Shown here one piece after another: positions 32,892 through 35,426 of a stretch of DNA of 35,426 nucleotides. This DNA is from Nautiliaceae bacterium (GTDB lineage: Bacteria > Campylobacterota > Campylobacteria > Campylobacterales > Nautiliaceae), in the NCBI GenBank assembly GCA_027036005.1, contig JALVTJ010000027.1:1-35426 (forward strand). Reading direction: 5' to 3'. The stretch's first letter is position 1. Every line of letters begins with the position of its first letter. The notes below the pieces were generated by a model. The model made no database searches. It was not told the DNA's origin and saw only the letters and a list, made by a program, of their open reading frames with translations. Both the position numbers and the translations under genes were made by a program.

Positions 32892-33938
32892 GTGAGATTA
32901 AGTGTAAAAGAAGCAGTAAATTTAATAAAAAATGAAGATTTACTCACCCTTGGAAAAATGGCACTTGAAAAAAAAAGAGAACTTCATCCTAAAAAAATAA
33001 CCACATTTATAGTTGATCGCAATATAAACTATACCAATATTTGCTGGTGCGATTGCAAATTTTGCGCTTTTTACAAGAAAAAAGGAGACAAAAACGCTTA
33101 TATTTTAAGTTTTGAAGAAATCGATAAAAAAATAGACGAATTGATTGAAATAGGAGGAACTCAGATTTTATTCCAAGGAGGGGTTCATCCCAATTTGAAA
33201 ATAGACTTTTACGAAAATTTAGTAGAACATATCCATAAAAAATATCCGCAAATCACTATTCATGGCTTTTCGGCGCCGGAAATCGATTATATTGCCAAAG
33301 TTTCAAAAATAAGTGTTAAAGAAGTATTAATAAGACTTAAAGAAAAAGGTCTTTTTTCTATGCCGGGCGCCGGAGCGGAAATACTTAGCGATAGAGTTAG
33401 AGATATAATAGCACCTAAAAAAATAGATGCTGATGTATGGCTTAAAATCCATAAAACTGCCCACGAAATAGGCTTGAAAACAACAGCTACAATGATGTTC
33501 GGAACGGTTGAAACGATTGAAGAAGTGGTTGAACACTGGGATAAAATAAGAAGACTTCAAGATGAAACAGGAGGATTTAGAGCGTTTATAATGTGGTCAT
33601 TTCAGCCTTATAATACAGAACTTTTCAAAAAAGGCATAGTAACTCAAAAAACATCTCCGAACAGATATTTAAAATATTTAGCCGTTGCAAGACTTTTTTT
33701 GGATAATTTTAAAAATATACAAAGTTCATGGGTTACACAAGGAAGCTATATAGGTCAGCTTGCGTTAAAATACGGTGCAAACGACCTCGGCTCAACTATG
33801 ATGGAAGAAAATGTGGTTAGGAGTGCCGGAGCACAAAACAGAATGAATCAAATGGAAATGATAAATTTAATTAAAGATGCGGGAGAAATACCGGCCAAAA
33901 GAAATACCGCTTATGAAATATTAGAAGTGTTTAATTGA
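32892..33938 (+). CDS. mqnC: Cyclic dehypoxanthinyl futalosine synthase MqnC
   Basis: 348 aa radical SAM enzyme of the futalosine menaquinone pathway, cyclising dehypoxanthine futalosine. The [4Fe-4S] motif CxxxCxxC is seen with Cys51, Cys55 and Cys58 in ICWCDCKFCAFY; Cys53 is an extra cysteine within it. QGGVHPNL, SAPEI, PGAGAEILSDRVR and GTVETIEE are standard for MqnC and separate it from MqnE. The start is GTG at 32892 with AAGGAG six bases before. The stop region overlaps the convergent nitrilase-fold gene by 18 bases. Confidence 0.93.
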   Translation: MRLSVKEAVNLIKNEDLLTLGKMALEKKRELHPKKITTFIVDRNINYTNICWCDCKFCAFYKKKGDKNAYILSFEEIDKKIDELIEIGGTQILFQGGVHPNLKIDFYENLVEHIHKKYPQITIHGFSAPEIDYIAKVSKISVKEVLIRLKEKGLFSMPGAGAEILSDRVRDIIAPKKIDADVWLKIHKTAHEIGLKTTATMMFGTVETIEEVVEHWDKIRRLQDETGGFRAFIMWSFQPYNTELFKKGIVTQKTSPNRYLKYLAVARLFLDNFKNIQSSWVTQGSYIGQLALKYGANDLGSTMMEENVVRSAGAQNRMNQMEMINLIKDAGEIPAKRNTAYEILEVFN

Positions 33939-34694
33939 TTTTTCCAAAAATTTAAACCTCCACTCCTTTCTTGCTTCTTTTATTCTGTTTTTATCAACTT
34001 CGATAATGCCGATTTCTTCTTTATTTCCCAAGATATTTATTATCTCACCTTCCGGAGAGATAGCAAAACTTTTCCCGTAAAAATCCCATTCTTTAAAACT
34101 TCCGATTCTGTTTGCCCTTATTACATATATATGATTCAAAAAAGCTTTTGTTTTTAATATTTCAAGCCATCTTTTATTTGAATTAAACGTCCCGACGCTC
34201 GGGATTAAAACACAATCCACTCTTTTTTCGCTAAAATAACGCCAAAAATTTTCAATATGCGATTCAAATCCGAACATTATCCCGAATTTAATTCCTTCAT
34301 TTATAAAAATCAAAGGAAAATCTCTTTTTTTATCGAAATATTTCTCTTCGTTCCAATGCGGATAAGGAATAAAGACTTGTTGATAATAATATCTTGCATT
34401 TTTGTCTATTTTTGCAATGACTTTATATTTTTTATTGTTTAATATTCTTACAATGGGAGCGATAATTGTTATATTGTAAATTTGAGCCAAATGTTTTAAA
34501 TGTTTTATCTGATGATTGGTTTGATTTTTAATAAAACTTAAAGGAGTTTTTTCAAGTTCTTTAAAAAATCTATTAAGAACGTATTCCGGTAAAACAATCA
34601 AACTTGCGCCATTTTTCTTTGCATTTTGAATTAAAAGACTAAGCTTTGCCTTATCATAAGGCAGATTATCCGTTTGTAAAATAGCTATTTTCAT
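33921..34694 (-). CDS. Nitrilase-fold (carbon-nitrogen hydrolase) protein lacking the catalytic Cys and Lys
   Basis: 257 aa of the CN-hydrolase fold. The first catalytic residue Glu37 is kept in LIVLPEY, and the second Glu (Glu116/117 in WNEEKYF) is present. The nucleophile position, usually 'GxxICxE/D', reads GIMFGFES, giving Gly142 where Cys is expected. The catalytic Lys, usually 'YRKxHxP', reads YYQQVFIP, giving Gln at ~106. On this evidence the protein is unlikely to be a normal amidase and may be a pseudoenzyme or binding protein. It starts 3 bp after xseB and is convergent with mqnC. Confidence 0.8.
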   Translation of the reverse strand: MKIAILQTDNLPYDKAKLSLLIQNAKKNGASLIVLPEYVLNRFFKELEKTPLSFIKNQTNHQIKHLKHLAQIYNITIIAPIVRILNNKKYKVIAKIDKNARYYYQQVFIPYPHWNEEKYFDKKRDFPLIFINEGIKFGIMFGFESHIENFWRYFSEKRVDCVLIPSVGTFNSNKRWLEILKTKAFLNHIYVIRANRIGSFKEWDFYGKSFAISPEGEIINILGNKEEIGIIEVDKNRIKEARKEWRFKFLEKSIKHF

Positions 34695-34697
34695 TTA

Positions 34698-34874
34698 CTA
34701 TCCGCTAATTTTTTCAAATTCAAGTTTAGCTTCTTCAATCATTTTACTTGCTTCTTCAAGCAGTTTAACGCCCTTTTTGTAATATTCCATTGCATCATAA
34801 AGAGTAATTTCCGGATCATTGAGTTTTTCGAGCAGTTTTTTTGCTTCTTGAAGTTTTTTTTCAAAATCTTGCAT
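34698..34874 (-). CDS. xseB: Exodeoxyribonuclease VII small subunit XseB
   Basis: 58 aa. The sequence MQDFEKKLQEAKKLLEKLND then ALYDAMEYYKKG-like middle (TLYDAMEYYKKGVKLLEEAS) is the XseB pattern of two helices with 'FEExLxxLexIVxxLExxxLxLexAlxxyxxGxxLxxxC'. XseB subunits coat the XseA catalytic subunit and regulate single-strand DNA degradation. No xseA lies in the window. ATG 34874 overlaps metX by 14 bases, and the nitrilase-fold gene starts 3 bp after its stop. Confidence 0.9.
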   Translation of the reverse strand: MQDFEKKLQEAKKLLEKLNDPEITLYDAMEYYKKGVKLLEEASKMIEEAKLEFEKISG

Positions 34875-35426
34875 CCATTTCTCCTTTTAAGATATCGTTT
34901 ATTAAAAAATCAAATTTATTTACTTCAACCAAAAAAGAATCATGCCCGTAATCGCTATCGATTTCAAAATACTGGCACCTGCCTCCGAGTTTATCCATAT
35001 ATTTTTTAATATCTCTCATCTCTTCGGGGAAAAAGAGCGTATCCCCACTGAAAGAAATCAAAAACAACTTGTCTTTAATCTGAGAAAACGCTTCATCCAA
35101 AGAATTAAATCCCCTGCTGATATCAAAAAGCGAAATTGCTTTTAAAAGATAAATGTAACTTAACGCATCAAACCATTTGGGGAAATTAGCCCCGTTATAT
35201 TCAAGATAACTCTCAACCTGAAATCTACCGAAAAGTTCGAACATTCCATCTGTTTTGACATATTCCCTGCCGAATTTCCTCTCAAACGTTTTAGGCGAGA
35301 TATAATTTAAATATCCTATCATTCTGGCTGCTGCCAAACCTTTTAATTCGGCTCCTATTTTATAATTTCCGTTGTTAAATTCCTTATCCGCCCTTATTGC
35401 TTCTATCATCGATTTGTTTATTGCGA
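34861..35426 (-). CDS. metX: Homoserine O-acetyltransferase MetX, C-terminal part
   Basis: Partial: the frame is open to the right edge of the window, giving ~188 C-terminal residues of a protein of about 370. It acetylates homoserine with acetyl-CoA in methionine synthesis. Family marks are ESYLEYNGANFPKWFDALSYIYL (a MetX-specific stretch), SGDTLFFP holding the catalytic Asp, and YGHDSFL holding the catalytic His. The nucleophile Ser is outside the window. The last codons overlap xseB by 14 bases, suggesting metX-xseB-nitrilase-fold is one transcript. Confidence 0.92.
   Translation of the reverse strand, partial: AINKSMIEAIRADKEFNNGNYKIGAELKGLAAARMIGYLNYISPKTFERKFGREYVKTDGMFELFGRFQVESYLEYNGANFPKWFDALSYIYLLKAISLFDISRGFNSLDEAFSQIKDKLFLISFSGDTLFFPEEMRDIKKYMDKLGGRCQYFEIDSDYGHDSFLVEVNKFDFLINDILKGEMDARF

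Follow-up and report, generated by a model that had tools for sequence, protein, structure and literature searches.

From sequence comparisons, we consider it rather probable that a gene of a Nautiliaceae bacterium (contig JALVTJ010000027.1) encodes a non-hydrolytic, ligand-binding pseudoenzyme of the nitrilase superfamily, vertically inherited and orthologous to Cj1056c of Campylobacter jejuni. Such a protein probably binds something and does no cutting, because the catalytic Cys and Lys are lost, yet the gene is intact, strongly selected and found in most of the sampled Campylobacterota. This widespread, conserved protein of the phylum has a structure that is already public while no function was found for it in the literature, and its residue pattern (a Glu pair kept, Cys replaced by Gly throughout, an invariant Lys91) makes for a precise, testable hypothesis.

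A tightly packed gene behind metX and xseB

The window, by which we mean the whole stretch of 35,426 nucleotides that was analysed, carries the pseudoenzyme gene next to xseB, metX and mqnC:

33921..34694, minus strand: nitrilase-fold pseudoenzyme gene, 257 aa, ortholog of Cj1056c (ORF; PF00795; 9wpn by phmmer and Foldseek; AlphaFold2)
34698..34874, minus strand: xseB, 58 aa, small subunit of exodeoxyribonuclease VII, immediately before the pseudoenzyme gene (PF02609, 40.8 bits)
34861..35426, minus strand: C-terminal part of metX, homoserine O-acetyltransferase (NF001209, 164 bits)
32892..33938, plus strand: mqnC, cyclic dehypoxanthinyl futalosine synthase, convergent with the pseudoenzyme gene (TIGR03699, 513 bits; NF006277, 667 bits)

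The pseudoenzyme open reading frame runs on the minus strand from an ATG to a TAA (34694..33921, 257 aa), and the plus-strand frame across 33921..34694 holds many stops. An earlier reading of this DNA, made from the sequence only, had described the gene as tightly packed after metX-xseB, and this is indeed what we observed: the start of xseB overlaps the end of metX by 14 nt, and the pseudoenzyme gene starts 3 nt past the xseB stop. metX reaches the contig end and is incomplete, the start of the operon lying outside the window. On the other side, the convergent mqnC shares its last 18 nt with the 3' end of the pseudoenzyme gene (window 33921-33938).

The protein belongs to the nitrilase superfamily by fold and descent

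The protein carries a Pfam CN_hydrolase domain (PF00795, 85 bits for a cut-off of 23.2), and an AlphaFold2 model built from an ortholog alignment of 70 rows reached a mean pLDDT of 96.1 and a pTM of 0.93. By searching the PDB with Foldseek, we found 9wpn/9wpo first (E 1e-32, TM 0.94, 41-42% identity), followed by the N-carbamoylputrescine amidase of Medicago (MtCPA) and many nitrilases; phmmer also matched the protein to 9wpn, with an E-value of 1e-56. Membership of the nitrilase (C-N hydrolase) superfamily, with its alpha-beta-beta-alpha fold, is thus supported by both the domain and the structural matches, in agreement with the fold first proposed for this gene. The confident model, like the C. 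jejuni ortholog solved by crystallography, bears out the proposal that the rest of the fold is intact.

Both active-site glutamates are kept while the cysteine and the lysine are replaced

We compared the active-site positions in an alignment of 85 sequences, made up of the window protein, 83 ortholog loci and 9wpn. The codons concerned are the following:

34584..34586, minus strand: Glu37, first catalytic Glu of nitrilases (kept in 85/85; aligns to MtCPA Glu48)
34422..34424, minus strand: Lys91 (85/85; Asn in 17/18 Cys-intact paralogs; aligned to MtCPA Y-N-S)
34377..34379, minus strand: Gln106, position of the catalytic Lys (Q in 73/85; others N, K, R, A, H, E, D, T)
34347..34349, minus strand: Glu116, second active-site Glu (kept in 85/85)
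34269..34271, minus strand: Gly142, position of the nucleophile Cys (G 83, A 2, C 0 of 85)

A profile alignment to MtCPA (5h8i) pairs E37, within VLPE, with Glu48; Q106, within YYQQVF where it follows Q105, with Lys121; E116 with Glu132; and G142, within IMFGFE, with Cys158. In MtCPA, Glu48 is the proton acceptor, Lys121 the proton donor and part of the oxyanion hole, Glu132 a supporting residue and Cys158 the nucleophile (PMC4812014). Against a CN-hydrolase of known structure, Gly and Gln therefore do stand at the Cys and Lys positions, as the sequence-only reading had it when it described a triad reduced to glutamates with the Glu of LPE kept; E116, the second Glu, is kept as well. The protein thus has the two active-site Glu of a competent nitrilase, and neither its catalytic Cys (G142) nor its strand-5 Lys (Q106).

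That reading also asked whether Gly and Gln would be common to the orthologs, which holds for one position better than for the other: position 142 is Gly in 83 sequences and Ala in the remaining two, while Gln106 is found in 73/85 only. Lys106 occurs solely in L031 and L059 of genus g55 (YEQK), where Lys91 is present and position 142 is Gly.

Since 84 further sequences besides the window protein have no Cys at position 142, Gly142 is no isolated defect. In addition, all 18 of the 18 aligned Cys-bearing C-N hydrolase paralogs of the phylum keep Cys142, E37 and E116, and L005, a second short C-N hydrolase in the window's genome that lies outside this 18-paralog alignment, also keeps its Cys (motif ICFE). 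The loss is therefore specific to the family and is not caused by genome-wide decay.

Could the protein be an active amidase that uses another Cys and Lys of the site, or else a decaying relic? We consider either to be very improbable. Cys161 is present in the window protein and in 26/85 sequences, and Cys189 in 47/85, but position 161 is variable (V/C/L/A/I/M), position 142 is never Cys, and none of the columns of the 85 sequences holds a conserved Cys, the 47/85 at position 189 being the maximum. Cys161, which the sequence-only reading had named as a possible replacement nucleophile, was rejected for this reason. The relic is contradicted by purifying selection and intact frames, as described below.

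The family forms one clade and is under purifying selection

With a threshold of E <= 1e-10, we found matches in 349/397 sampled Campylobacterota genomes and 56/68 genera, a set that includes paralogs among a few of its weakest matches. Besides the Glu pair and Lys91, the invariant positions are Q7, Y38, F43, W114, E144, R175, W176, R193, G198, F205, Y206 and G207. In a tree built by a quick method, with support values given as SH-aLRT only, all members of the pseudo-family fall on one side of a single branch (SH-aLRT 100, one change). The simplest reading of the sequences is that a single loss of the Cys preceded the divergence of the sampled members and was retained thereafter.

The closest pair, L011/L012, is the sole unsaturated one (dS 0.16) and gave a dN/dS of 0.019; the other pairs above 68% identity gave 0.02-0.20, with dS near or past saturation. 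Such purifying selection, the intact frame and conservation across the phylum speak for a functional rather than a decayed gene, and, together with the single ancestry, the confidently predicted fold and the solved crystal structure of an ortholog, for the conserved pseudoenzyme initially suspected. The gene is absent in the lineages f6, f13, g15, G086, G062 and G082, and is therefore not universally required. No viral relatives of the pseudoenzyme were found. A contig scan with window-specific patterns returned 10 loci only, the named ones from Campylobacterota; these patterns are insensitive and give no measure of spread outside Campylobacterota.

The operon does not assign the gene to methionine synthesis or DNA repair

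In 80/84 loci the gene immediately before the pseudoenzyme gene is xseB, and the two usually touch or share a few nt; metX lies upstream in 68/84, and a ThiF-like gene follows downstream within the locus in 40 of 84. The window shares this xseB neighbourhood, as expected for a member of the Cj1056c family. Such an arrangement could mean that the pseudoenzyme works with ExoVII (through XseB) or with methionine synthesis (through MetX) as a structural or regulatory partner, hence the operon; we regard this as a rather unlikely explanation. First, the gene is kept in genomes in which metX was not found, such as G011, G001 and G019. Second, neither XseA nor XseB was detectable in G393, where the pseudoenzyme gene is present right after metX. 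Third, family f6 has metX-xseB without the pseudoenzyme gene, and in G095 and G071 xseB is located elsewhere, away from it. The link to methionine or DNA-repair genes that had been suggested from the window alone is thus not supported as a functional one: the gene outlives the loss of metX or of both ExoVII subunits, and many genomes that retain metX-xseB, those of f6 among them, do not have it. In our reading, the metX-xseB-gene order is an ancient operon from which members were lost independently, and it does not prove a shared function; since neighbours have been lost independently, the operon offers no basis for assigning the gene to either process.

Several loci show individual variants of this order. 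In L128 (G393:C109, 527-2427), metX is joined directly to the pseudoenzyme gene, which takes the usual place of xseB. In L124 (2378-4771), from G086 of the window's own family, metX-xseB is followed by mqnC and the pseudoenzyme gene is cleanly missing in between. G044 and G210 have xseB and then directly the ThiF-like gene. In L120 (G134, 1727-2387), a 220-aa protein, which by its appearance we take to be YgjP/DUF45-like, stands between xseB and the ThiF-like gene at the usual place of the pseudoenzyme.

A pocket that may bind a ligand

Because the nucleophile Cys is gone, the thio-acyl intermediate of nitrilases should be impossible, and amides or nitriles would not be hydrolysed by that route. 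Judging from the alignment, the replacement of Cys by Gly would enlarge the former active-site pocket, which would retain the invariant E37 and E116, with the family-specific invariant residues K91, R175 and R193 nearby in sequence. We propose that this pocket is kept for binding a small metabolite, probably a zwitterionic one (amino-acid- or amine-like), and that the pseudoenzyme would act by binding, as a sensor, a regulator or a partner subunit; the ligand and the downstream partner are the most doubtful steps of this proposal, and we found neither a ligand nor a partner nor a phenotype for the family. In MtCPA, the Glu pair holds Lys121 charged and probably attracts the NH2 group of the substrate, and cadaverine lies bent past Cys158 toward the Glu pair (PMC4812014). 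By analogy, the kept Glu pair opposite Gly is a plausible binding site.

Since the Lys is gone from position 106, the Glu pair needs another positive charge, which could come from a cationic group of the ligand or from one of the invariant residues R175, R193 and Lys91, the last of them on the adjacent strand. This leads to the possibility, which we hold to be doubtful, that the protein is a repurposed enzyme in which the catalytic Lys has shifted from position 106 on strand 5 to position 91 on the neighbouring hairpin strand, so that a Glu-Lys-Glu cluster is kept for a different, non-covalent reaction. Lys91 is found in 85/85 members against Asn in 17/18 Cys-bearing paralogs, while position 106 has turned from Lys to variable, mostly Gln. 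In the model, the strands 88-96 and 100-104 are consecutive and separated by a three-residue turn, so a hairpin is likely. A deep Glu pair moreover calls for a counter-charge, which Lys121 provides in MtCPA (PMC4812014). However, the register of the hairpin could equally put K91 on the other face, and the family has no conserved Cys, nor is a Ser or Thr known to occupy the former nucleophile site.

Lys91 may be the lysine moved to the neighbouring strand, and as such it could restore part of the catalytic machinery; a water- or Glu-driven reaction needing no Cys is possible in the family. A comparable relocated lysine is known in WNK kinases. As a tentative scenario, to which we give limited credence, a nitrilase of an early Campylobacterota ancestor would have lost its nucleophile, with Asn91 changing to Lys and Lys106 to Gln, and the resulting Glu-Lys-Glu-Gly site would have been kept by selection, either for sensing a metabolite or for a new, Cys-free reaction. 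Compared with these scenarios, we still favour non-hydrolytic ligand binding.

Comparison with known nitrilases and with Cj1056c

Deaminated glutathione amidase and the glutaminase domain of NAD synthetase share the fold and the Glu with the window protein and are weaker matches; both enzymes possess the Cys and the Lys. The same is true for PH0642 and the P. abyssi nitrilase, which have the fold and the Glu in common with our protein and match it less well, PH0642 being aligned with its Cys and Lys. Closer to the window protein is N-carbamoylputrescine amidase (AguB/CPA; 5h8i-l), with a fold TM of 0.79-0.86 and both active-site Glu in common. TIGR03381 (AguB/CPA) is the curated family matched by 70/70 members, but the score of 71.6 bits is far below its equivalog cut-off of 410.25 and does not make the protein an AguB. 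Unlike MtCPA, the window protein has Gly for Cys158 and Gln for Lys121, and the alignment has a gap in the segment holding the MtCPA specificity residue Glu187. The window's genome encodes a separate Cys-bearing paralog, L001, of 301 aa.

The best structural match remains Cj1056c, the nitrilase superfamily protein CJ1056C of Campylobacter jejuni in PDB entries 9wpn/9wpo (released 2025-10-08), which is annotated as a 'putative carbon-nitrogen hydrolase family protein'. Full-text literature searches gave no paper that deals with what Cj1056c does or with its structure, nor one on HP1481, a gene of H. pylori that we assume to be a possible ortholog; expression of cj1056c is listed in one table as modulated at low pH (PMC5841378). 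The genomic context differs among relatives, the nearest sampled one (L070/G011, 73% identical) having xseB and no metX, in contrast to the window with its upstream metX-xseB and convergent mqnC. At 41-42% identity and a TM of 0.94, Cj1056c has the same Gly at the Cys position (FGFE), the same QQ at the Lys position (YEQQ), K91 and the Glu pair, so that sequence, structure and the G/Q/K/E pattern all place the window protein in the Cj1056c family. As Gly and Gln are common to both, the window protein is the ortholog of this solved protein, and the annotation of Cj1056c as a hydrolase in C. jejuni is probably wrong.
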